Source: Halorubrum sp. 2020YC2 (GTDB lineage: Archaea > Halobacteriota > Halobacteria > Halobacteriales > Haloferacaceae). Taken from it: a stretch of 64,000 bases of DNA. Position numbers and translations under genes: made by a program. The notes beneath the pieces are model-generated. The model did not search any database. It was not told the origin of the DNA and worked only from the letters and a program-made list of their open reading frames with translations. Positions within the stretch are counted from its first letter, which is position 1. Each line of letters opens with the position of its first letter. Where the stretch lies: contig NZ_CP076019.1 in assembly GCF_018623055.1 (NCBI RefSeq), positions 186,001 through 250,000 of the forward strand, written 5' to 3'. Shown here one piece after another: positions 8,475 to 32,776 of this stretch.

Positions 8475-9473
8475 TCAAAGCAGCCAGCGCACCGCCGCGA
8501 GCGCGACCGCGCTCACGACGAGCAGGTGGACCAGCACCGCGCCGACGGGCGCGGCCCCCACCGCGCGCATGTCGTCGACCCGGATCGAGAGCCCGAGACC
8601 GACGAACGCCAGCGCGAACAGCGCGTCCGAGACGCGGCCGAGAGAGTCGAGCGCGGCCGGCGAGAGCAGCCCCCCGTTGGCGACCGCCGCGACGATCAGG
8701 AACCCGAGCAGGAACTTCGGGAACTCCGCCCAGAGCCGTCGGACGCCCGGGTCGGCGGCCGACCGCGCCGTGTACGCCAGCGAGTACGCGACCGCGACGC
8801 CGCCCAGAAGCGAGTTGCGCGCCAGTTTCGTCACGGTCGCCCACTGGCCGGCCTCGGGCGAGTAGGCGAACCCCGCGGCCGCGACGGGCCCGGTCGAGAA
8901 CATGCTCACGCCCGCCCAGACGCCGAACTGCCGACCGGTGAGCCCGAGCCACTCGCCCGCCAGCGGGAACGCGACGAGCGTCGCGGCGTCGAACAGCAGT
9001 ATCGTCGCGGCCGCGAAGGTGATCGCGGCGCCCCGGGCGTCCAGCACCCTCCCGATCGCGACGACCGCGGAGACGCCGCAGATGCTCGCGCCGGCCGCGA
9101 GAAGCGACGAGGTAGGCGATCCGATCCGGAAGAGGCCGCGCGCGACGACCTCCGCGAACAGGAGTCCACCCGCGACGAACGCCACCACTAATCCGAGGAC
9201 GGTCGGTCCCGCGGCGAGGAACTCCTCGACCGCGACCGCGGCGCCGAGCAGCACGATGCCGGTCTCCAAGAACAGTTTGTCGACGCCGACGCCCGGCTCC
9301 GCGACCTCGGGAACCCCGACCGTGTTCCCGACGACCACCCCGATCGCGACGGCGACGACGAGGGGTTGGAGGCCGGAAACCGCGTCCGCGAGGAGCGTCG
9401 CGGCGAGGGCGCCGCCCGCGAGCAGCGCGAGGCCGGGCAGGTACGCTCGGACCGCCTCGAGAGCCCCCGTCAC
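8475..9473 (-). CDS. YeiH-family membrane transporter (UPF0324, putative sulfate exporter family)
   Basis: 332 residues with about 10 hydrophobic membrane spans. The family signature region AAGASICGVSAVVAIGRVL lies near residues 105-125, and the second inverted half contains the conserved WAGVSMFSTGPVAAAGFAYS. Family members are annotated as putative sulfate or sulfite exporters, with the substrate not firmly established. GTG start 9471-9473 overlaps the stop of the upstream 50-residue gene by GTGA, so the two are translationally coupled. Confidence 0.85.
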   Translation of the reverse strand: MTGALEAVRAYLPGLALLAGGALAATLLADAVSGLQPLVVAVAIGVVVGNTVGVPEVAEPGVGVDKLFLETGIVLLGAAVAVEEFLAAGPTVLGLVVAFVAGGLLFAEVVARGLFRIGSPTSSLLAAGASICGVSAVVAIGRVLDARGAAITFAAATILLFDAATLVAFPLAGEWLGLTGRQFGVWAGVSMFSTGPVAAAGFAYSPEAGQWATVTKLARNSLLGGVAVAYSLAYTARSAADPGVRRLWAEFPKFLLGFLIVAAVANGGLLSPAALDSLGRVSDALFALAFVGLGLSIRVDDMRAVGAAPVGAVLVHLLVVSAVALAAVRWLL

Positions 9474-9622
9474 AGCGCCTGTCCGGCGACGTGGGCGGCG
9501 ACGATTCCGAGGCCCAGCGCGAGCGCCTGCCAGCCGCGGTCGAGCGCGGTCCAGCGGTCGACGACCCCGGCGTCGCCCGCCGAGCCGTCCGATTCCGCTC
9601 CCTCGTCGCCGGTCGATGCCAT
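9470..9622 (-). CDS. Small single-span membrane protein coupled to the YeiH transporter
   Basis: 50-residue reading frame starting at ATG 9620-9622. The first 27 residues are acidic and polar (MASTGDEGAESDGSAGD and on). A hydrophobic segment GWQALALGLGIVAAHVAGQAL follows, long enough for one membrane span. Its TGA overlaps the transporter's GTG start (GTGA), an arrangement rarely seen by chance. I do not recognise the family. It may be a small transporter subunit or simply a coupling leader. Confidence 0.65.
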   Translation of the reverse strand: MASTGDEGAESDGSAGDAGVVDRWTALDRGWQALALGLGIVAAHVAGQAL

Positions 9623-9676
9623 GGGGGCGAGTCCGCCGGGGCGCTACTTACGCGTGTCGCTCGCGCCCGGTTCCGA

Positions 9677-11092
9677 TCAGTCGTCGGCCTCGGCCGCGAC
9701 CTCGTCGCCCGCGTCCGCGTCGGGCGCCGCCGTCTTGTCGTCGGCCTCCTCCCCGTCGTCGAGTCGCGGGAAGTTCTCGATGGTCGCGTCGCGGAAGGCG
9801 GCCTCGTCGAACTCGTAGTCCTCCTCGAAGAAGCCGAGGACGGTCTTGACGTCGGTCATCGCGTTCTTCAGCGCGGTCGACGCGCCCGGCGAGGGCGTGA
9901 TGTTGAAGAGGATGCCGTCCTCGGTGATCTTCGCTTCGCCCATGTCTAACTCCTTGTTCTCGGTGTCGACGATCTGGGGGCGCACGCCGCCGTACCCCTT
10001 CGCCCGGTCGATGTCGTCGACGTCGACGCTCGGGACGACCTTCTGGACATCCGGCAGGAACGCGCGCTTGCCGACCACCGGGAGGTCGTACACGAGGTTG
10101 CGAACGACGTACGGGAAGAGGATCCTGTCCGAGAGGATGTTGACGTAGCTCAGCACGGAGTCGGGGTTGAAGCCGAACACGTCGACGAAGTCGCTCACCG
10201 TCGAGAGGTGGCCGCGTTCGAGCGCGGGCACGAGCTTCGCGGTCGGGCCGAACCGGGTGATCTCGTCGTCGTGGACGTCGGCGTCGCCGTGGACCGCCGC
10301 GAACGGGAGCTTCTTCATCTGTAACGTGTACACCTTCCCGTTCAGCAGGTCGTCAGCGAGGAAGAAGCTCCCCGCGACCGGCAAAAGCGACATCCCCTCG
10401 CCGTACCCCATCTCCTTGGCGAACTGGAGGCTGTGCGAGCCGGCCGCGACGACGACCGCCTCGGCGTCGAACTCGCCGTCGTCCGTCTCGACGCGGAAGC
10501 CGTCGCCCCGCTCGTCCACGTTCGTCACGGTCGTCCCGAGGTGGACGGCGACGCCCTCCTCCTCGCGGGCGGCGTCGACGAACGACTCCGCGACCGCGCC
10601 GTAGTCGACCACGTAGCCGTCGGGCGTCTGGAGCGCCTTGAGCTCGGTGTCGGGGTCGCGCCCCTCGACGACCTTCGGCTCCAGTTCCGCGATCGCCTCG
10701 CGGCCGATCTCCCGGAGCTTCGGGAACAGGTCGCCGAACCCGTTCTCGCGGTAGCGCTCCTCCAGCTTGGCGACCTCCTCGCCCCCGACGCCCAGCACCA
10801 TCTTGCTCCGCTTGCTGTGCATCTCGCGGTCGGGGTCCTCCCCTTCGAGGTAGCCGGCGAGCAGCTCCGCGCCCTCCTTGACCTCCTCGGCCTTTTCGAG
10901 GGTGTAGTTCGTCTCGATGTCCCCGAAGTGGAGGGTCTGCGAGTTGTTCGTCCGGTGAGTGTTGATCGCGGCGATATCCCGCTCCTTCTCGATCAGCGTG
11001 ACGTCGTCGACGTCGGTGAACTTCGCGACCGTGTACAGCAGCGACGCCCCGCTTATCCCCCCGCCGATGATTACGAGATCGGTGTCAGACAT
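9677..11092 (-). CDS. FAD-dependent malate:quinone oxidoreductase-like enzyme
   Basis: 471 residues. The N-terminal Rossmann motif GGGISG at 10-15 binds FAD and is followed by the acidic strand end LIEKE. The family features INTHRTNNSQTLHFGDIE near residue 45 and KGYGGVRPQIVDTENKEL near 355 match membrane-associated Mqo, which oxidises malate to oxaloacetate with electrons to quinone. The last 40 residues are an acidic tail. Other FAD-dependent 2-hydroxyacid oxidases cannot be excluded. It is a single gene with its own divergent promoter against the phosphorylase gene. Confidence 0.78.
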   Translation of the reverse strand: MSDTDLVIIGGGISGASLLYTVAKFTDVDDVTLIEKERDIAAINTHRTNNSQTLHFGDIETNYTLEKAEEVKEGAELLAGYLEGEDPDREMHSKRSKMVLGVGGEEVAKLEERYRENGFGDLFPKLREIGREAIAELEPKVVEGRDPDTELKALQTPDGYVVDYGAVAESFVDAAREEEGVAVHLGTTVTNVDERGDGFRVETDDGEFDAEAVVVAAGSHSLQFAKEMGYGEGMSLLPVAGSFFLADDLLNGKVYTLQMKKLPFAAVHGDADVHDDEITRFGPTAKLVPALERGHLSTVSDFVDVFGFNPDSVLSYVNILSDRILFPYVVRNLVYDLPVVGKRAFLPDVQKVVPSVDVDDIDRAKGYGGVRPQIVDTENKELDMGEAKITEDGILFNITPSPGASTALKNAMTDVKTVLGFFEEDYEFDEAAFRDATIENFPRLDDGEEADDKTAAPDADAGDEVAAEADD

Positions 11093-11307
11093 GCGTGGTG
11101 AAAGCTCACCTCACGCGACACGCTCCCCCGTTAACCATTTTACCATCCGTCCGCGAAATCGAGCGGTAGAGCGCCTACGAACGTCGACTAGCAATACGAC
11201 GATCGTCGAATACCTTGCCGGTCACGAACGCGTCCGCCGTCGGCCGCTCGCGTCGGAGCCGTCGAGCGACCGCAACGTCCTTTCCTGTTCCCGCGAACAC
11301 CGGTCGT

Positions 11308-21608: not shown

Positions 21609-21660
21609 GTATGTGGCGGCAACCGCGGGACGCCGGTCGCCCGGCGCCCGCCACTCATCG

Positions 21661-22847
21661 ATGGCATCTACTGAACCAGTCGGGACGACGCGCTCGGTCG
21701 AGTCGGAGGACGCGACGACCGAGAAGTCGGACGGCGCGGCCGCCGGCGGTCGGACGGACACCGCTTCCGACGACGCGGCCCCCGCCGCCGCGGACCCCGT
21801 CCTGTCGCTGTCGGGGATCACGAAGGCGTTCGGTCCCGAGACCGCCGTCGAAGACGTCTCGCTCGACGTGCGCTCCGGCGAACTGCTGACGTTCCTCGGC
21901 CCCTCCGGCTGCGGCAAGACGACGACGCTCCGCACGATCGCGGGGCTGGAGGAGCCGACCGAGGGCCGGATATCGATCGACGGCGAGACCGTCGCCGGCG
22001 ACGAGGCGTTCGTTCCGCCGGAGCAGCGCGACGTGGGCATCGTCTTCCAGAACTTCGCGCTCTTCCCGCATCTCACCGTCCGCGAGAACATCGCGTTCGG
22101 GCTGACCGACGCCGACGCCGCCGAGAGCGAGGCGCGCGTCGACGAACTGCTCGAACTCGTCGAGATGACCGACCACGGCGAGAAGACTCCCGACCAGCTC
22201 TCCGGCGGCCAGAAGCAGCGCGTGGCGCTCGCCCGCTCGCTCGCGCCCGAACCCGAGGTGCTCCTCTTAGACGAGCCGTTCTCGAACCTCGACGTGCGCC
22301 TCCGGGTGGAGATGCGCGAGGAGGTGCGCCGCATCCTTAAAAAGGCAGGCGTCACCGCGGTCTCGGTCACCCACGACCAGGAGGAGGCGCTTTCAATCTC
22401 CGACCGGGTCGCCGTCATGAACGACGGGACGATCGAACAGGTCGGCCGCCCGAGTCGGTGTTCGAGCGCCCCGAGTCGAAGTTCGTCGCCTCCTTCCTCG
22501 GCCGGGCGTCGTTCCTCGAAGGGGAACTCCGCGACGGGAAGGTCGACACCGGTATCGGCCGCTTCGACGCCGTGACGCTGGAGGGGTACGACACCGTCTA
22601 CGACGGCGCGCCCGTCGACGTGCTCGTCCGTCCCGACGACCTGCGCGCGACGCCGGCCAGCCCCGAACTCGCGGACGGCGTCGTCACCTCGCGGCAGTAC
22701 GTCGGTCCCTCGTTCGTCTACCGGGTCGAACTCGACTCCGGCGAGGCGGTCCATTGCCTCCACAACCACGTCGAAGAGTTCGACCTCGACGAGCCGGTCG
22801 CCCTCGAACTCACCGCGGACCACCCGCTCGCCTGGTACCCGCGGTAA
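21661..22847 (+). pseudogene. ABC transporter ATPase, ferric-iron type, frameshifted
   Basis: The first frame (ATG 21661) encodes an ATPase with Walker [10 protein letters not shown] near residue 82, signature [15 protein letters not shown] near 180 and Walker B VLLLDEP near 200. The frame is lost at about 22452, where CGCCCGAGTCG appears to lack one G. The next frame resumes with the family-consistent [15 protein letters not shown] and a regulatory C-terminal domain. The gene is either dead or carries a sequencing error. No permease or binding-protein gene is adjacent. Together with the iron-box operator, it looks like an orphan of an iron(III) importer. Confidence 0.8.
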
Positions 22848-23236: not shown

Positions 23237-23527
23237 ATGTCAGAAACGGGTACGAACGACTCCGATATCGATGATCCCGAGACGACGACGATCAACATTC
23301 GGGTCACCGAGCGTCAGTTGGCGGAGATCGACGCGGTCTGGAAGGAGGAGGGGTACACGTCTCGGAGCGAATTCCTCCGGCACGCGATCCGCGACGCGAC
23401 GCATCACCCCGGCGCGTCGCGCGACATGCTGGCGAGCATCGCCGCTGAGGAGTACGCGATGCGAAAGGGTGAGAGCGAGGCCGTCTCTCGCGACGAGGTC
23501 CTCGAACTGATCGATGACGAGGAGTGA
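23237..23527 (+). CDS. Ribbon-helix-helix antitoxin
   Basis: 96 residues. The RHH core TTINIRVTERQLAEIDAVWK and SRSEFLRHAIRD spans residues 16-52. The C-terminal part is the toxin-binding tail. It precedes and overlaps by 14 bases a RelE-family toxin frame, the standard order of a type II toxin-antitoxin pair. RHH antitoxins autoregulate their promoter. The antitoxin frame is intact while the toxin is frameshifted. Confidence 0.85.
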   Translation: MSETGTNDSDIDDPETTTINIRVTERQLAEIDAVWKEEGYTSRSEFLRHAIRDATHHPGASRDMLASIAAEEYAMRKGESEAVSRDEVLELIDDEE

Positions 23528-24532: not shown

Positions 24533-25100
24533 TTAGTTTTCGAACGTTATTTCAACCGTCCCAGTTTCCCACTCGCTTCCAAGGTCGGCTCCCGTCGTGT
24601 CGATACCAACCCCAACTCCCACGTACGAACCGCTACCCGTACCGGGGAATCCCTCAGTGTAGTCTCCGTCGGGGTTGACCTCGGTTGGTCGACCCTGCTG
24701 CGGTATATCGTAGAACGAAATGTTCCGGATTATCGAGTCTACTCCAGTCGATCTCGGCCGTCACACTGTCACCGATCCGCGATCCGTACCCAAACACGTT
24801 GTCAAAGAAGTACTCGGAGTCGGTACTGAGCCCCGTCCCGTCGGAAAGGAAGCCACCACTGTCGACATCTGCATTCTAATTGAACCGTAACTCGAGTTTG
24901 CCGTTCTGCTGTTCGGCGTACTGTGAATTCTCCAAGCCTGAATCATCTGCGAGCAGCGTTGCGAACGCACTATTGTCCGAGACGACTGAAACGCTCACAC
25001 CACGCGATGCGCTTGCCTGCGAGAACGCACCTGTCCCCGTTGCCGCCGCAGTTCCAGTTGCCAATGCGCCCAGCCCGACCACGAATTTGCGTCGTTCCAT
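24533..25100 (-). pseudogene. DUF1102-type exported protein, disrupted
   Basis: ATG 25098-25100 opens a Tat/Sec-like leader (MERRKFVVGLGALATGTAAA) and the motif TGTGAFSQASASRGVSVSV shared by haloarchaeal DUF1102-type surface proteins. An in-frame TAG at 24876-24878 ends the frame after 74 residues. The same frame continues NADVDSGGFLSDGTGL and on, then a frameshift around 24715-24760 leads to DYTEGFPGTGSGSYVGVGVG and a normal stop at 24533-24535. One nonsense and one frame change together mean true decay. Confidence 0.75.
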
Positions 25101-25214
25101 TGTTGGTCTACCTGTTACAGCACGCGACCCGCCTTCGGGGACACGAGACATCTCGTGTCACCCCGGGTCGCTCTACTACATCCATGGGACGTATCCCATA
25201 TCGTTATGAGTCAG

Positions 25215-25613
25215 CAGAAGGCGTTCTGGACGGTGTTGAACACGCTTCGTCCACGTCGGTCAGCGCGGGGGTCGGTTCGACGACCCCGCGATCCTTGTTG
25301 AACTCCACGCCCCCGGCGTCGTCCATCTTCGGCAGGTGCGCTGCTGAAGGCCGTGTACACTCGCTTCCGCTCGCTGCTCGATCTCGGCGGTGTCGATACC
25401 GTTCTCCCAGGCGGCGATCTGCTCGGCCATCTCGCCAATCTCGACCGCGTCGTCCGGGTCGCGTTTCAACAGGTGGACCGCGAACCGGCGCCGCTGGTTC
25501 GCGAGAACGTCGAACAGGTCGTCCTCGGAGAGCTCCGCCGTCGGCTCTGCCCCTCCTCGTCGATCCGCTGTGCCGACGCCATTAACGTCTGACAAATATG
25601 AATACGCCAACAT
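25215..25613 (-). pseudogene. DUF7344-type winged-helix regulator, copy 1, truncated
   Basis: The N-terminus is complete: ATG 25611-25613, then AELSEDDLFDVLANQRRRFA and HLLKRDPDDAVEIGEMAEQI, a winged-helix domain with DUF7344 character. The frame is lost after DTAEI because of small deletions relative to copy 2 at 26639-27234. Homology stops at 25251, so the two C-terminal membrane spans are missing. Confidence 0.72.
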
Positions 25614-25814
25614 AAAACCACGGGTTGTGATAACTCAGCAACGTTTACATGCGTTTACGAACGACCCCCGGCCCGGACTCGAAAACCGAACTAAAGCCCC
25701 TCAAACGTCCAAATTCGCGCGTTCTGTATTCCTGACAACATATTTGATCGAGGGATTCACCCGAAAATCACATCCCGGATCACTCTGTCGGGGGGCCGAT
25801 TGGCGGCCGTACAC
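25251..25814. repeat. Long direct repeat, copy 1
   Basis: This 564-bp segment matches 26890-27438 almost base for base (offset about 1640), apart from short indels: 22 bases are present here but missing in copy 2 near 27178, and a few single bases differ. It covers the N-terminal half of the DUF7344 gene and its upstream AT-rich region. It marks a segmental duplication of about 1.6 kb. Confidence 0.9.
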
Positions 25815-25855
25815 TTCCTGCTCTGTCCGGGGAACTGTACCCGATCAACGAACTC

Positions 25856-26466
25856 TTACGGATCGCTCTCCGCCCTGTGAAGCGTGAACGAGCGCGTGTC
25901 ACCGAACAGCTGCGCGCTGACACCGCCTTCGACCCCCTCGATCGTGATTGTTACTTCGACGTCGGCGCTGCCTTCGAGCGGGAGGTACGCATCCGCGACG
26001 ATCCGAACCCATTCGCCGGGTCCGAACGCGTCATCTTCGTTCGCGGCCGGGTAGTCGCCGTTCGTTGACCCGCGCTCGATCGCTACGTGATCCTCGTTGA
26101 CGTCGGTGAAGTCCTCGTCGCTGAGCGTTTCGTCGGGAGCCGCTTGGCTATCGTAGCGCTCGACGGCGACGTCTCGCAGTACGTCACCCTCTCTGTCGTC
26201 GTCTTCGTACTCGTACTCGACGCGACGAGAGCGAGGTCTTGGTTGCCACCGAACTGATTCCGAACGCGAACGAGCGTGACCTGTTGACCGTATTCGACGC
26301 TTGCGCCGTCGCTCGGCGTCTCGTACCGAATGTACGCGTTCTCGTCGTCCGCCACGTTCACCTCTACCCCCCGCTCCGCCTCCATACTACTGAACGCGCC
26401 GGTCCCGACGCTCATCGCGCCGGAACTCGCGCCGCCGAGCAGAAGAATGAGGTTGCGTCGTTTCAT
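25856..26466 (-). pseudogene. DUF1102-type exported protein, single frameshift
   Basis: ATG 26464-26466 starts MKRRNLILLLGGASSGAMSV, a leader peptide, then GTGAFSSMEAERGVEVNV. A frame change near 26225 (one base missing after GACCTCGCTCTCGTC) passes into VEYEYEDDDREGDVLRDVAV, ending at TAA 25856-25858. The restored product is about 203 residues with an immunoglobulin-like beta composition. It is paralogous to the gene at 24533-25100 and to the N-terminal domain at 27526. Confidence 0.72.
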
Positions 26467-26638
26467 GTGCCGTGTGGGGACCGGTGTCGTCTACTCGTCG
26501 GGACAACGCCTCGGAAGCATAAGGTTATGCGCCGCTGGAAGCCGGTATGGCGCCGCTTGAACGCCCGCGGTCGTTGCCTGAACATCGTCTGTCGACCTCC
26601 CCTCGGCCCGGTCGGCGGCTCCCGCGACGCGGGTCGCG

Positions 26639-27234
26639 TCACTCGCGGTCCACTTCCGGCGGCTCCTCCCCGCGCCCGACCTCCATCTCCGCGGCGTAGT
26701 ACTTGTGCGCCAGCGCCGAGAAGGCGAACGCGACGACGATGGCCAGCGTCCACCCCATCTCGGGCAGGAGGGTGAAGGGCCACACCCCGAGCCACACCGC
26801 CGCGACCAGCGCGGCGGCCACCCCGGAGAGCCCGAGGTAGTACTCGCTCCACGGGATCTCTCGCCCCTCGACGACGTCGAGGTAGACGTCCACGTCGGTC
26901 AGCGCGGGGGTCGGTTCGACGACCCCGCGATCCTTGTTGAACTCCACGACCCCGGCGTCGTCCATCTTCGGCAGGTGCGACTGCTGAAGGGCCGTGTACA
27001 CTCGCTTCCGCTCGCTGCTCGATATCTCGGCGGTGTCGATACCGTTCTCCCAGGCGGCGATCTGCTCGGCCATCTCGCCAATCTCGACCGCGTCGTCCGG
27101 GTCGCGTTTCAACAGGTGGACCGCGAACCGGCGCCGCTGGTTCGCGAGAACGTCGAACAGGTCGTCCTCGGAGAGCTCCGTCGATCCGCTGTGCCGACGC
27201 CATTAACGTCTGACAAATATGAATACGCCAACAT
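26639..27234 (-). pseudogene. DUF7344-type regulator with two membrane spans, copy 2 (start region damaged)
   Basis: The readable part spans the winged helix (ELSEDDLFDVLANQRRRFAV to VYTALQQSHLPKMDDAGVVE) and two membrane helices (YYLGLSGVAAALVAAVWLG and MGWTLAIVVAFAFSALAHKY). Compared with copy 1, a 22-base deletion near 27178 puts the original ATG (27232-27234) out of frame, and no ATG precedes codon 27112. Translation from 27112 would lose the first recognition helices. DUF7344 proteins are haloarchaeal regulators. The target here is probably the neighbouring surface genes. Confidence 0.7.
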
Positions 27235-27438
27235 AAAACCACGGGTTGTGATAACTCAGCAACGTTTACATGCGTTTACGAACGACCCCCGGCCCGGACT
27301 CGAAAACCGAACTAAAGCCCCTCAAACGTCCAAATTCGCGCGTTCTGTATTCCTGACAACATATTTGATCGAGGGGATTCACCCGAAAATATCACATCCC
27401 GGATCACTCTGTCGGGGGGCCGATTGGCGGCCGTACAC
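26890..27438. repeat. Long direct repeat, copy 2
   Basis: Partner of 25251-25814. The two copies diverge abruptly at their ends (at CCACGTCGGT and just after GTACAC), giving sharp duplication boundaries. The unique 1.07 kb between them contains the DUF1102-type pseudogene and the C-terminal part of this DUF7344 gene. Recombination between copies would delete or amplify that segment. Confidence 0.9.
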
Positions 27439-27525
27439 CGTTCTCGGACGGCCTGACGGCTCCCTTCCGAACTTCAAGCAGCGCATAACCAAGGGCCTCC
27501 GACGGTAACGGGCGATCAGTCACGG

Positions 27526-29057
27526 ATGTCTACCGCGCGTCGAACCCTGCTCGTCGTCCTCGTCGCCGCCGCGGGCGGTCTCGCCCTCGCCACCGGAGCG
27601 GCGGTGATCGACGGGCCGACGGACTCGCTCGCCGAGGAGCGCCTCGCGGTCCAACCCGCTGAGGGTCCGAACGGCGCGTACGCCTATTTAAATAACGACG
27701 ACGAGATCGTCGTCGACGTCTCGGCGTCGAACCCCAAACTCCCGACCGACTTCGAGGGCGTCAACCCCGGAAGTCTCGCCGCGGCCGAGGGCGTCTTCAC
27801 GATCACCTACACCGCCGACGAGCGCGCCCGCGTCTGGATCGAACACCCGGAGGCGAACGTCACCTTCGTCGCCGACGGCGCGTCGATCGAGGGGGAGGCG
27901 AACAACGTCACCCTCGGTCCGACGAGACGGTCGCGGTCGGCCTCGACGTGGACGCGCGCGGCGCCGTTGCGGGTACCCAACTCGGCGGCGACGACTTCGA
28001 CATCCGGGCCGAGGTCGCGGAGCCGGAGTCGGTCTCGACCGCGGACGACGACGGCGGGGGCGGCGCCGCCACCGTCGTCCGGCGTCCCGCTCCCGACCGG
28101 CGGGAGTTCGAGGGGCGCGGTCTCTCCGCCGGCGGGAGCGTCACCTTCGACGCGGAACGGATGGCGATCGTCGGCGGCGACGTCACCCTCGACCGCGTGC
28201 GAATCGAGGGGACGCGCGGCGGGGACGTCGGCTTCGGGACCGTCGGCCGGCCGGACCCGTTCGCGTCGGCCGGGGAACTGAACGACTCCCGGGGCGCGGC
28301 GCCGAACGGCTACTTCGAGTTCGACCACTCGTTCACCGACGAGGCGGTCTCCCGCGTCCGGTTCTCCGTCAGCGTCGACCGCGACTACCTGAACGAGACC
28401 GGCGGGGATCCCGAGGACCTCTCGCTGTACCGCCGGGCGGCGTCGGAGCCGGACGGCTGGGAGCGGCTGGAGACGGAGCGCGTCGACCCGGCGGTCCGCC
28501 GGCTGCTGAACCTCCCGGAGGACCGAGTCCACGTCACGGCGTCGACCGACGAGTTCTCGGTGTTCGCCGTGGCGACAGAGCGGTCCCGCATCCGCGCGAC
28601 GTCCGCCGCGCTCGACCGCGAGGCCGTCGACCCGGGCGAGCCGGTCGTCGTCCGCGCGACGGTCGCGAACGGGGGCGGCAGCGACGGCGCGCGCGACCTG
28701 ACGCTCACCGCCGACGGCGAGGCGGTCGCGACCGAGCGGGTCGAACTCGACCCGGACGAGACCGCCGCCCTCGCGCTCGAAGCGACGTTCGACGAGCCGG
28801 GGTCGTACGACATCGCGGTCGACGCGGCTCCCGCCGGGACGCTCGTCGTCGGCGATCCGGCTGGCGACGGCGACGAGGGCGACGGCGCGTCCGTCGGGGA
28901 CGGGACCGGCGGCGCGACGGCGCCCGACGACCCCGCGTCCGATCCGCCGACCGAGGAGCCGAGCGGGATCGACCCGTCGAACCTCGTCGGTCTCGCCGCG
29001 CTCGTCGCCATCGTCTTGGCGAGCGTCGCGCTCGTCCGGCGCATGCCGCGGTCGTGA
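27526..29057 (+). pseudogene. DUF1102-domain surface protein with C-terminal anchor, one frameshift
   Basis: ATG 27526 begins a signal sequence (TLLVVLVAAAGGLALATGAA), then the DUF1102 core (NGAYAYLNNDDEIVVDV). Near 27923 GGTCCGACGAG seems to lack one C. The next frame continues DETVAVGLDVDARGAVAG, a PGF-pre-PGF-like region (YFEFDHSFTDEAVSRVRFSV), a CARDB-like domain (DPGEPVVVRATVANGGG) and a terminal span LVGLAALVAIVLASVALVRR. Apart from one base the gene of about 510 codons is well preserved, so a sequencing error is possible. It heads the surface module. Confidence 0.75.
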
Positions 29058-29165
29058 CGCCCGCTCGCGCCGGGTCCGGCGCCGGTCGCGCGAACAGCGC
29101 TCGACGTTATCACCGCTGGATCCCGAGACCATAGAGATTAACCGACCGTCGCGGAAGACACTCCC

Positions 29166-30101
29166 GTGACCGACCTCTCGTCGGAGGCCGACCGTTCGGT
29201 CCCGGACCGCGGCGGGAGCGACGGCTCCGTCCGCGACCGGGACGCGCGCGACCGGTCGGGGTACGCGGCGTTCGTCGACGAACTGGCCGCCCGCGCTCGC
29301 GTCCGCGACCTCCTCGCGCTTTTCGCCCCGCCGGTCGCCCTCCTCGCGGCGTTCGCGCTGCCGGACGCGACCCGGCGCTCGCTCGCGTTCGCCTACGCCG
29401 ACCCCGACCCGCTGTCGGCGTTCACCGCCCACTACGTCCACCTCGGCGTCGACCACCTCCTCGGGAACCTCGCCGGGTACGCGCTCCTCGCCGGGGTCGG
29501 CTACGCGCTCGCGGTCCTGAGCGGGCGCCGGCGCCTCTTTTTCACCGCGTTCGCGACCTACCTCGGCGCCTTCCCGTTCGCGCTCTCTGCGCTGAACCTC
29601 GCCGTCCCGCGGGACGCGATCGGCTTCGGCTTCTCCGGGGTCAACATGGCGCTCGCCGGGCTGCTCCCGATCCTGTGGTACTGCTACGCCCGCGACCGGT
29701 TCGCGCCGGCCGCCTCGACCGCCGCCCTGCCCGCGGTCTTCTTCGCGCTCGTCGGGTGGATCGCGCTCCTGGCGCTGCCCGTCTCGACGTCGGGAGACGG
29801 GTTGGCGGGGCTGTCGATCGCCGTCGCCGGCGCGCTCCTCGCGGCGCTGTACGCGGCCAGCAGCGGGGTGCGGTTCCCGCGGCCGGTCCGGCGACACGCG
29901 AGGGCGGTCGCGTCGCGTCCCGGCTACGGGGACTTACTCGCCGTCGGCGCGGTGGTCGCGGTCGGCTACCCCGTCGTCGGCTTCCCGCCCGACCCCGCCG
30001 GCGGCGGGAGCGTCGTGAACCTCTACGTCCACCTGCTCGGGTTCTGTCTCGGGTTCATCGCCCCGTTCGCGCTGCTCGCCGGCGGCGCCTTCGACGACTA
30101 G
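29166..30101 (+). CDS. Rhomboid-family intramembrane protease
   Basis: 311 residues starting at GTG 29166. Seven or more spans are visible. The second conserved segment has HYVHLGVDHLLGNLAGYALL. The catalytic serine lies in GFGFSGVNMALAGL, and the partner histidine in the last-but-one span VNLYVHLLGFCLGF. A polar N-terminal tail of about 40 residues precedes the core. It would cleave membrane proteins within the bilayer. It lies between the DUF1102 protein and a signal peptidase, which suggests processing of exported proteins. Confidence 0.82.
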   Translation: MTDLSSEADRSVPDRGGSDGSVRDRDARDRSGYAAFVDELAARARVRDLLALFAPPVALLAAFALPDATRRSLAFAYADPDPLSAFTAHYVHLGVDHLLGNLAGYALLAGVGYALAVLSGRRRLFFTAFATYLGAFPFALSALNLAVPRDAIGFGFSGVNMALAGLLPILWYCYARDRFAPAASTAALPAVFFALVGWIALLALPVSTSGDGLAGLSIAVAGALLAALYAASSGVRFPRPVRRHARAVASRPGYGDLLAVGAVVAVGYPVVGFPPDPAGGGSVVNLYVHLLGFCLGFIAPFALLAGGAFDD

Positions 30102-30253
30102 GGCCGCCCGCAACCGTTCGGGCTCGCCTACACCCACGAACTTATTAGGACACGCCGCCCTTCAGCGATCGACGGCTACCTGACGCTCGCGCGACAGGAA
30201 TTCCGGCGCGGCGGTGGCCGCTTCGGGGCCGTCTCCGAGCCGAGTCCGACACA

Positions 30254-31417
30254 ATGTCCATCAAACGAACGCTGTCCGTGGCCCTTCAGGCGGCCGCGGT
30301 GCTGGTCGTCGTCTCGCTCGTCGTCGGACAGTTCCTCGGCCAGCCGATCCTCCTCAGCTACGTGGAGACCGGGAGCATGCAGCCGACGCTCGACCCCGGC
30401 GACGGGTTCGTAGCGATCCCGGCGCAGATCGCCGGCGGGATCGGGACGGGCGACGTCGTGACGTTCGACGCGCAAGAGATCCAGGGCGGCGGGCTGACGA
30501 CCCACCGCGTCGTCGAGGAGACCGAGCGCGGCTATATCACCCGCGGGGACAACAACCCCTTCACCGACCAAGACGGGGGCGAACCGATCGTTCAGGACGC
30601 GGACGTCGTCGCGAAGGCGCTCCAGGTCGGTGGGAGCGTCGTCGTGATCCCCCACTTGGGAACCGCCGCAATGGGGTTCCAGTCCGCGCTCGACGCCGTT
30701 CAGACGCGGCTCGCGGTGACGTTCGGCGTCCGCTCGCTCCAGGGGACGCAGGGGCTTGCGTACATCGTTTTCGCGGTCTCGGTCGTCGCCTACGCGGTCG
30801 ACTGGTACCTCAACGCCGGCTCCCGCGACCGCGACTCGCGGGACCGGTCGCGCGACGACGGCACCTCCGTGCTCGCGATCCTCGGCGTGCTGGCGCTGGT
30901 GCTGATGGCGACGGCCACCGCCGCGATGGTCGTCCCGGCCGGAACGCAGGAGTACGGCGTCGTGAGCGCCGAGTTCGAGTCCGAAAACCCGACCGTCATC
31001 GAGAGCGGCGCGAGTCAAGAGCTAGAGTACGTCGTCCCCAACGCCGGGCTGGTTCCGGTGTACGCGTACGTCACGCCAGCGAGTCCGGGCGTCGACGTCG
31101 ACCCGCAGCGCCTCTCGGTCGGCAGCCGCGGCGAGGCGTCGACGACGGTGACCCTCTCGGCGCCCGACGAGACGGGGTACTACCGGCTGTTCGTCGCCGA
31201 ACACCGCTACCTCGCGGTGTTGCCGCCCGGGGTCGTCGACGAGCTGTACGGCGTCCACCCCTGGGCGCCGCTCGTCGCGATCAACGGGCTGCTCGGCGGC
31301 GGTATCGTCGGTATCGGACTACTGCTGTTGCGCGGTGAACCGGCCCGGATCCGGTCGCGCGACTCCCGCGAGCGCCCCCCGCTCCACAGACGGCTCCTCC
31401 GCGAGTTCTACAAGTAA
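30254..31417 (+). CDS. Signal peptidase I (S26B) with large C-terminal membrane and extracellular region
   Basis: 387 residues, about twice the usual archaeal signal peptidase. A membrane anchor at 8-28 is followed by the catalytic GSMQPTL (Ser41), LTTHRVVEE (His84) and TRGDNNP (Asp99), the S26B triad. Further spans near 160-180 and 215-235 frame an extracellular domain (about 240-345, rich in beta-type sequence), and a last span ends at about 375. Only 3 bases separate it from the DUF5305 gene. Signal peptidases of this SipW-like type often serve a dedicated exported partner. Confidence 0.88.
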   Translation: MSIKRTLSVALQAAAVLVVVSLVVGQFLGQPILLSYVETGSMQPTLDPGDGFVAIPAQIAGGIGTGDVVTFDAQEIQGGGLTTHRVVEETERGYITRGDNNPFTDQDGGEPIVQDADVVAKALQVGGSVVVIPHLGTAAMGFQSALDAVQTRLAVTFGVRSLQGTQGLAYIVFAVSVVAYAVDWYLNAGSRDRDSRDRSRDDGTSVLAILGVLALVLMATATAAMVVPAGTQEYGVVSAEFESENPTVIESGASQELEYVVPNAGLVPVYAYVTPASPGVDVDPQRLSVGSRGEASTTVTLSAPDETGYYRLFVAEHRYLAVLPPGVVDELYGVHPWAPLVAINGLLGGGIVGIGLLLLRGEPARIRSRDSRERPPLHRRLLREFYK

Positions 31418-31420
31418 CAC

Positions 31421-32776
31421 ATGTCTTCAGGCCCCAACGAACGTCGACTCCGACTCCGCGCCGTCCTGAACGAACAGTCCACCGCTATCCTCGTCGCCTG
31501 CCTCCTCCTCGCCGCGGTCGGCGCGGGGCTCGCGTACACGACGCACGTCGACCCCGGGACGGAGACGGAGACCCGGACGGTCTCCTCGCTGACCGTCGAG
31601 AGCGAGTACCGCCACAGCGCGACGGTGACGGAGCCGAACGCCGTCTTCCAGACGGGCGCGGTGCTCGACGGGCGCGACACGTACTTCGCGCGGATCGCCC
31701 CGGAGCTCGACGTGGACGTGGCGACGAGCTACGCGGCGTCGAGCGCCGAGAACGTGACCGTCGAGGTCGGCTCCACGCTCGTCGTCCGCAACGTCGGTGA
31801 AGGCGACGTCGTCTACTGGCGCGACACGGAGCCGCTCGCGTCGGAGACCGTCTCGAACGTCGCTCCGGGGGAGACGGTGAACGCCTCGTTCACGCTCAAC
31901 AGCACGGCGATAGACCAGCGGACGGCGTCGATCGAAGAGCAGCTCGGCGCCTCGCCCGGCGAGACGGAGACGTTCGTCACGACCGAGGTCGCCGTCGACG
32001 GGTCGATCGGCGGCGTTCCCACGGCGACGACCCAGACGCTCGAGATGGCGCTCACCCACGGCGGCGCCACGTACGCCGTCGACGAGCCGGGCGTCCAGTC
32101 CGACACGACGCCCCGGACGGTACAGGAGACGGTCGAGCGGGAGTACGGCGCGCTCCGGTCGTTCGGCGGGCCGCTCCTCCTGCTCGCCGGGCTCGTCGGT
32201 GCCGGCGGAATCGGGTACGCGACGCGCGAGTACGACCTCGCGCTCACGTCCGCGGAGCGGGAGTACCTCTCGTACCGCGACGACCGCTCGGAGTTCGCGG
32301 AGTGGATCACGACGTTCCGGCTCCCGGCGTCGACCCACGAGCGCCCGACGGCCGAGGCGGAGTCGCTGCGCGACCTCGTCGACTTCGCGATAGATAACGA
32401 CACCGGCGTCGTGGAAGACCCCCAGACCGGCGCGTTCCACGCCGTCTCCGGGGAGTTCGTCTACACCTACCGACCGCCCGCCCCGGCGACCGGCGACCAC
32501 GGTGGAATCGCCGGCGACGACGGCCAAGCCGCCGCCGAGGCGGTCGACGACGAGGGGTCTGACGACGAGGCGGTCACCGACGCGGACTCGACGGCCGTCG
32601 CGTCGGCTCCGGGCTCGACCGCCGCGACCCCCTCGGCCGACGGCGACTCGCCGGACGAGGAGCGTGAGGCCGCCGACGTCGACGTGCCGGACGAGGCGGA
32701 CGTCTGGGAGATGGACACCCGGCCGACGGACGCCGACGCGGGTGGCTCGGACGAGGGGGACGACGACCGGGCCTGA
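31421..32776 (+). CDS. DUF5305 membrane protein
   Basis: 451 residues: a short cytoplasmic start, one span at about 22-42 (AILVACLLLAAVGAGLAYTT), an extracytoplasmic beta-rich domain of about 200 residues, a second span near 250 (GGPLLLLAGLVGAGGIGYAT), then a cytoplasmic region and an acidic low-complexity tail. DUF5305 proteins are commonly encoded next to signal peptidases and DUF1102 proteins in archaea. Their role is unknown, and a scaffold for export or assembly of the secreted partner is plausible. Confidence 0.82.
   Translation: MSSGPNERRLRLRAVLNEQSTAILVACLLLAAVGAGLAYTTHVDPGTETETRTVSSLTVESEYRHSATVTEPNAVFQTGAVLDGRDTYFARIAPELDVDVATSYAASSAENVTVEVGSTLVVRNVGEGDVVYWRDTEPLASETVSNVAPGETVNASFTLNSTAIDQRTASIEEQLGASPGETETFVTTEVAVDGSIGGVPTATTQTLEMALTHGGATYAVDEPGVQSDTTPRTVQETVEREYGALRSFGGPLLLLAGLVGAGGIGYATREYDLALTSAEREYLSYRDDRSEFAEWITTFRLPASTHERPTAEAESLRDLVDFAIDNDTGVVEDPQTGAFHAVSGEFVYTYRPPAPATGDHGGIAGDDGQAAAEAVDDEGSDDEAVTDADSTAVASAPGSTAATPSADGDSPDEEREAADVDVPDEADVWEMDTRPTDADAGGSDEGDDDRA

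Follow-up and report, generated by a model that had tools for sequence, protein, structure and literature searches.

A candidate biogenesis locus for Taf-type fimbriae in Halorubrum sp. 2020YC2, with a SipW-like signal peptidase and its DUF5305 partner

Positions 24533-32776 of a 64,000-nucleotide stretch of Halorubrum sp. 2020YC2 DNA (the window, which spans 186001-250000 of a 3.06-Mb single-contig genome and whose numbering is used below) carry genes for exported pilin-like proteins, DUF7344 regulators, a rhomboid-type protease, an enlarged S26B signal peptidase and a DUF5305 protein. We propose, with a probability of roughly 0.82, that these genes together serve the biogenesis of Taf-type surface fimbriae. 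A preliminary description of the DNA had put forward a surface-fibre system as a hypothesis, and this has gained support, as the pilins match both a solved archaeal pilin and fimbrial families of NCBIfam. Because NCBIfam already names Taf fimbrial proteins, this class of fibre is known, and because the window genes score below the NCBIfam cut-offs, the locus is a variant of it. Two features look new: DUF5305 as a partner shared by the SipW-type peptidases of two classes of archaeal fibre, and the pairing of TafF with a rhomboid. The parts of the locus are as follows.

24533-25100, minus strand: TafA/DUF1102-type pilin gene (NCBIfam and Pfam), interrupted in the assembly
25250-25613, minus strand: a further copy of the DUF7344 regulator gene, truncated to its N-terminal part (PF24035, 50.6 bits)
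25859-26466, minus strand: TafE-like pilin/adapter gene (NCBIfam TafE, 45 bits; PDB 9p0a_C, E 1.1e-5; whole orthologue in relative locus L090)
26639-27190, minus strand: DUF7344 regulator gene with one hydrophobic segment (PF24035, 80.6 bits)
27526-29057, plus strand: TafF-like gene with a DUF1102-like pilin domain, a CARDB-like domain and a C-terminal motif-transmembrane-Arg signal
28940-29054, plus strand: the tripartite C-terminal signal of TafF, consisting of PTEEPSGID, a hydrophobic segment and RRMPRS
29166-30101, plus strand: rhomboid-type intramembrane protease with GFSG and transmembrane segment 6 His motifs (PF01694, 18.1 bits, cut-off 22.6)
30254-31417, plus strand: enlarged S26B (SipW/Sec11-type) signal peptidase (TIGR02228, 56.3 bits, cut-off 51.85)
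31421-32776, plus strand: DUF5305 protein with a transmembrane segment, a beta-rich domain, a second transmembrane segment and a conserved C-terminal domain (PF17231, 190 bits)

Results

The pilins resemble a solved archaeal pilin

A profile of TafA proteins matched the solved ‘Pilin’ structure PDB 9p0a_C with an E-value of 5.1e-33 across 170 positions, and other matches to 9p0a reached E 4.2e-11 and, for the TafE-like gene, E 1.1e-5. At the level of sequence profiles, the pilins of the locus are thus related to this archaeal pilin. The window pieces matched the N-termini of three NCBIfam families, TafA (NF052520) at 39.8 bits (cut-off 190), TafE (NF052522) at 45 bits (cut-off 155) and TafF (NF052523) at 32.7 bits (cut-off 420), scores that are lowered because the window genes are broken; the highest TafA score anywhere in the genome, 52.9 bits, is likewise under 190. 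Several DUF1102 exported proteins had initially been described here, a count that needs to be reduced. One gene (24533-25100) passes the Pfam DUF1102 cut-off, and only when its internal TAG is read through; the TafE-like gene has weak matches to TafE, TafA and TafC (NF052521) and no DUF1102 match in the Pfam scan; and the DUF1102 match of the TafF-like gene lies under the cut-off. In whole relatives of TafF, DUF1102, PGF-pre-PGF and CARDB domains are combined, and 80 of 83 relatives have a C-terminal transmembrane segment.

The N-terminal signal ends in the motif G-[TSA]-G-[AG]-F-[ST] in 182 of 255 TafA/TafE proteins. PF12389 (Peptidase_M73, the TasA/camelysin family) matched neither the window pieces nor six TafA proteins, and no chain of AbpA, the Pyrobaculum bundling-pilus protein, was among the structure matches listed in the profile searches.

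Elsewhere in the genome, a second Taf cluster (locus L013, G000:C1:2263000-2282000) holds a DUF7344 gene and four TafA-type genes, the last two of which seem by eye to run into repeat-rich and lectin-like sequence, like pilin-adhesin fusions. A third DUF1102 gene lies in locus L012 (G000:C1:1603000-1621000), near 8824-11289, and by eye is apparently broken by a transposase-like open reading frame on the opposite strand (9958-10968).

The locus is a conserved unit in the class

Among 145 genomes of the class, a TafA-type gene was detected in 105, the enlarged S26B peptidase in 113 and DUF5305 in 118, and these sets are nested: all 105 TafA-type genomes have the peptidase, and all 113 peptidase genomes have DUF5305 (Fisher p 6e-25 for the presence table, although the genomes, being related, do not count as independent). 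Both S26B and DUF5305 are also found wherever a genome has full TafA matches. At the level of genera the corresponding numbers are 41, 46 and 49 of 58, which places a fibre pathway of this kind in most of the haloarchaeal genera sampled. The co-occurrence of peptidase and DUF1102 genes, which the preliminary description had named as a check on its hypothesis, is therefore very strong.

Linkage points the same way. With 150 S26B, 150 DUF5305 and 152 TafA matches listed (two of the last being TafA matches in the window), the counts are lower bounds: at least 135 of the 150 S26B matches have DUF5305 within 10 kb, at least 103 have it immediately downstream on the same strand, and at least 86 are no more than 10 kb from a listed TafA. 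Eighty named loci, several of them on short contigs, were retrieved by S26B alignment; they contain DUF5305 in 76 cases, DUF7344 in 67 and a TafA/TafE-type gene in 67, with DUF5305 downstream of the peptidase on the same strand in 74. In the usual order, TafE and DUF7344 run in one direction, and TafA genes, an optional TafF and rhomboid, S26B and DUF5305 run in the other.

Within the genus Halorubrum an S26B match is present in 52/52 genomes, and a full-length orthologue of at least 71% identity in 38/52. Forty genus loci were mapped, 36 of which have a close S26B orthologue, and in every one of these the rhomboid lies upstream and DUF5305 downstream of the peptidase; a TafF-type sequence was found in 35 and a minus-strand DUF7344 gene in 33, the remainder ending near contig edges. 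TafA-type genes occur in two layouts, either on the plus strand ahead of TafF or, as in the window, on the minus strand past the TafE-like gene. Since this gene order recurs in relatives, the locus is more than a chance assembly and represents a real conserved unit.

The peptidase, DUF5305 and DUF7344

The description of an S26B peptidase with an extra extracellular domain agrees with the TIGR02228 match and with the predicted topology. Hydropathy places transmembrane segments at residues 5-37, 164-182, 201-231 and 338-360, and residues 232-337, the C-terminal domain beyond the catalytic one, are on that basis predicted to lie outside the cell. S41, H84 and D99/D105 are invariant in the S26B alignment (7 sequences for S41, H84 and D99), and among 118 S26B proteins the catalytic motifs GSM, HR[VI] and GD[AN]N are present in 111, 118 and 115, respectively. 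The enzyme scores 31.3 bits against the SipW equivalog NF046067, below the cut-off of 190, and no PDB relative was found for it by sequence search. It is the only S26B above the TIGR02228 cut-off in its genome, which also has two weaker S26 relatives, a pattern that fits the expectation for a dedicated enzyme.

The DUF5305 gene begins exactly 3 bases past the peptidase stop codon, as had been reported. Sequence search found no PDB relative for its product. The AlphaFold2 model (mean predicted local distance difference test score, pLDDT, 92.4) consists of a helix (20-42), a beta domain (47-239), a second helix (244-270) and a small C-terminal domain, and 74 of 102 DUF5305 relatives have two transmembrane segments by hydropathy. 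A fold search with the model returned only general beta-sandwich matches (best Z 8.8). Relationship of DUF5305 to TafA or to S26B was also considered and rejected, as profile comparison of either pair gave no similarity.

DUF7344 is presumably a regulator of the winged-helix type. The regulators noted earlier are present as a gene and a truncated copy (PF24035), both of them incomplete. The genome has twelve DUF7344 matches, and the regulator family is therefore broader than the fibre loci.

DUF5305 accompanies TasA-family proteins in a second archaeal lineage

In a phylum sample of 120 genomes, DUF5305 was found in 24, 10 of them outside the class, and 9 of those 10 belong to one family. Nine stretches were retrieved from 7 of the 10 outside-class genomes, and in 9/9 an S26-type peptidase lies at most 2 kb from a DUF5305-type protein (located in L175 and L176 from the coordinates of the phylum search). 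Peptidase_M73/TasA-family proteins are encoded in three of the stretches, L170, L172 and L173, and M73 matches are confined to these three; five of six proteins tested reach the Pfam cut-off, and all six have SipW-type signal peptides. When a profile was built from such proteins of L170-L173, its matches included TasA structures (8aur, E 1.8e-4; 5of1, E 4.8e-4). In L174, L175 and L177 the place of the M73 proteins is taken by DUF7344 and DUF1102/TafA genes, L176 has TafF-like genes, and L178 has the peptidase-DUF5305 pair. Alignment of the DUF1102 proteins of this family with haloarchaeal TafA reaches a probability of 99.2%. DUF5305 thus accompanies SipW-type peptidases alongside two classes of pilin, which is the firmest support for an analogy with the SipW-TasA system. 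As a separate observation, L170 and L173 each have two S26B-type genes within one gene run.

TafF and the rhomboid

The rhomboid protease reported at 29166-30101 is supported by its GFSG and transmembrane segment 6 His motifs, with a PF01694 score below the cut-off. TafF and the rhomboid are an optional module of the locus: in the 80 named loci both are present in 44, TafF alone in 7, the rhomboid alone in 2 and neither in 27, many of the 44 being from Halorubrum and so not independent. Close rhomboid relatives occur in 53/145 class genomes, and 43/65 rhomboid matches are at most 10 kb away from the S26B or DUF5305 coordinates compared (second fragments of two split matches were omitted, and some listed S26B/DUF5305 coordinates were outside the comparison).

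Rhomboid-paired TafF proteins end in E-E-P-[GSA]-[GA]-[IF]-[GD] or similar, followed by a transmembrane segment and Arg residues, whereas most unpaired ones do not. The signal of the window TafF is conserved in its relatives and is the sole strong match in its own genome. A first motif pattern, chosen with the sequences in view, matched 39 of the 44 paired and 2 of the 7 unpaired TafF proteins, one of the unpaired matches looking spurious. A tail profile trained on 34 Halorubrum tails, with the test genera kept apart, scored higher in paired (15) than in unpaired (7) TafF proteins of other genera, a modest difference (one-sided p 0.017). Exceptions are L126 and L138, with a rhomboid and no motif, and L131, with the motif and no rhomboid nearby. 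Against the rhombosortase family TIGR03902 (cut-off 84) the window rhomboid scores 19.7 bits and the best of four relatives 24.4; the window protein does not qualify as a rhombosortase as that family is defined. The motif-transmembrane-Arg signal suggests, on these modest statistics, a rhombosortase-like step.

Several TafF proteins have EPGGFG or EPAGFG in their tails, sequences close to PGF-CTERM, and whole TafF proteins match the PGF-pre-PGF domain above or near its cut-off. These features, with the low TIGR03902 score of the rhomboid, would also fit another reading, in which archaeosortase A processes the motif as a variant of PGF-CTERM and the rhomboid is a neighbour with other substrates. 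We consider this unlikely, though worth serious attention: no PGF-CTERM family match was listed for the window TafF at E 0.1 or for whole TafF proteins of relatives in NCBIfam and Pfam, and both the pairing of the two genes across the 80 loci and the higher tail scores of paired TafF proteins speak for a link to the rhomboid.

Rhomboids of haloarchaea have been investigated in Haloferax volcanii, and the function of archaeal rhomboids has been described as poorly understood (PMC11985538); in that paper's main text, the terms signal peptidase, fimbria and genomic context are all absent. None of the 14 control genomes of the TafA search gave a match, H. volcanii being among the controls named for other searches.

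Interrupted genes and a direct repeat

The TafA/DUF1102 gene has an internal TAG near 24876 and a frame change near 24711, the TafE-like gene a frame change near 26222, and the TafF-like gene a frameshift near 27920. Two direct-repeat copies, each about 560 bp long, flank the TafE-like gene and carry the two DUF7344 copies.

25248-25814, no strand: first copy of the direct repeat
26887-27438, no strand: second copy of the direct repeat

The near-identical copies differ by single-base insertions or deletions and one 22-base gap, through which the DUF7344 gene at 26639-27190 has lost its N-terminal frame relative to the other copy. These interruptions, with a drop in G+C at 23-27 kb, could mean that what this strain has is a remnant of the locus in decay. 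That seems improbable to us, as relatives are intact with conserved order, the peptidase, DUF5305 and rhomboid genes have open reading frames in the window, and frame changes are found in other genes too. An ABC transporter ATPase gene (21613-22847) is split by a frame change near 22450, as the open reading frames of 11 relatives support, and the second Taf cluster also has genes divided between frames; insertion or deletion errors in sequencing are therefore a likely cause.

Discussion

We envisage a pathway in which the exported beta-rich pilins (TafA and TafE-like), whose N-terminal signal ends in the observed G-[TSA]-G-[AG]-F-[ST] motif, would have that signal cut off by the neighbouring dedicated S26B peptidase. 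By analogy with TasA, the freed N-terminal strand would then complete the fold of the next subunit, and the Phe after the cleavage site may play a part like that of TasA F29. As the partner of the peptidase, DUF5305 probably holds subunits at the membrane or passes them on for assembly. TafF, with its pilin domain, spacer and C-terminal membrane helix, would anchor the base of the fibre, and DUF7344, membrane-tethered by its sequence, probably controls the divergent genes. Where a rhomboid is present, it may cut the TafF helix at the motif and so release or transfer the base, a step that we advance more tentatively than the others. Equally tentative, and short of even odds, is the joint proposal that in an archaeal rhombosortase-like step the rhomboid reads and cuts TafF at E-[PAL]-[GSA]-[GA]-[FIL]-[GD] plus helix and basic tail, and that DUF5305 is a general partner of SipW-type peptidases in both DUF1102/TafA and TasA/M73 fibres.

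Signal peptidases in archaea are normally S26B enzymes, and the window enzyme alone exceeds the TIGR02228 cut-off in its genome, but that it is a general signal peptidase linked to these genes by chance operon inheritance is very improbable, given that S26B is absent at E 1e-15 from 32/145 class genomes, all 32 without a TafA-type match, that the genome has the two weaker S26 relatives, and that the same pairing occurs in another family with a different type of pilin.

Several points weigh against a Taf fimbrial locus as we describe it. The TafA, TafE and TafF matches of the window are all below the curated NCBIfam cut-offs, and in eight genomes of the class S26B was found but no TafA-type gene was detected. 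A model of the TafE-like protein (L090 orthologue, pLDDT 74) gave only general beta-sandwich fold matches (best Z 8.6); TasA and 9p0a are absent from the fold matches listed for this model and for that of DUF5305, an absence that excludes nothing. The roles given to DUF5305 and the rhomboid are drawn from context alone. The assembly also shows interruptions in the pilin genes, in TafF and in each DUF7344 copy, so that the strain may not make a fibre from this locus. Finally, comparison of DUF1102 and M73 profiles gave 65% in one run and 1.7% in another, and for this reason the SipW-TasA analogy is not extended to homology between DUF1102 and TasA, which we do not claim. The likeness proposed in the preliminary description stands in the sense that the systems appear to work alike, with DUF5305 found elsewhere beside SipW-like peptidases and TasA-family proteins.

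The locus shares with Bacillus SipW-TasA-TapA an S26B peptidase with Ser-His-Asp residues that matches the SipW model, at 31 bits, and is linked to exported fibre proteins. TasA is cleaved by SipW and has Phe at P2' (PMC10269814), and the donor strand comprises residues 28-38, with F29 among those inserted (PMC9674648); the Taf proteins likewise have an aromatic residue directly past the expected cleavage site. Archaeal bundling pili of Pyrobaculum are cited in the latter source as TasA-like fibres with donor-strand assembly. In contrast to Bacillus SipW, the window peptidase is about twice the length of the 189-position SipW model and has an extra C-terminal domain, and the archaeal loci add DUF5305, DUF7344 and, often, TafF and a rhomboid. 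The arrangement also recalls rhombosortase and GlyGly-CTERM, where a rhomboid goes with a C-terminal Gly-containing motif, transmembrane segment and basic tail on a surface protein (PMC3237569). It differs in its low TIGR03902 score, in an active site of SGVNM or SGINM rather than SGMLH, and in being archaeal with a single neighbouring substrate rather than many. Relative to the NCBIfam Taf families, the window TafF has CARDB and a tripartite C-terminus, and among the NCBIfam matches listed, neither a peptidase nor DUF5305 nor a rhomboid is named as a Taf component. Our literature search found no paper on Taf fimbriae, DUF1102 or 9P0A in archaea; it did not extend to subscription journals or bioRxiv, and a Taf paper may well exist.

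If correct, our proposal of a Taf fimbrial locus places DUF1102, DUF5305, DUF7344 and the C-terminal part of S26B, all domains of unknown function, in one fibre-making pathway. It would provide a direct archaeal counterpart for testing how removal of a signal peptide licenses fibre growth, and it predicts a natural substrate for a haloarchaeal rhomboid. Beside the locus, a small ribbon-helix-helix protein is encoded at 23237-23527 and is kept near the same place in many Halorubrum loci.

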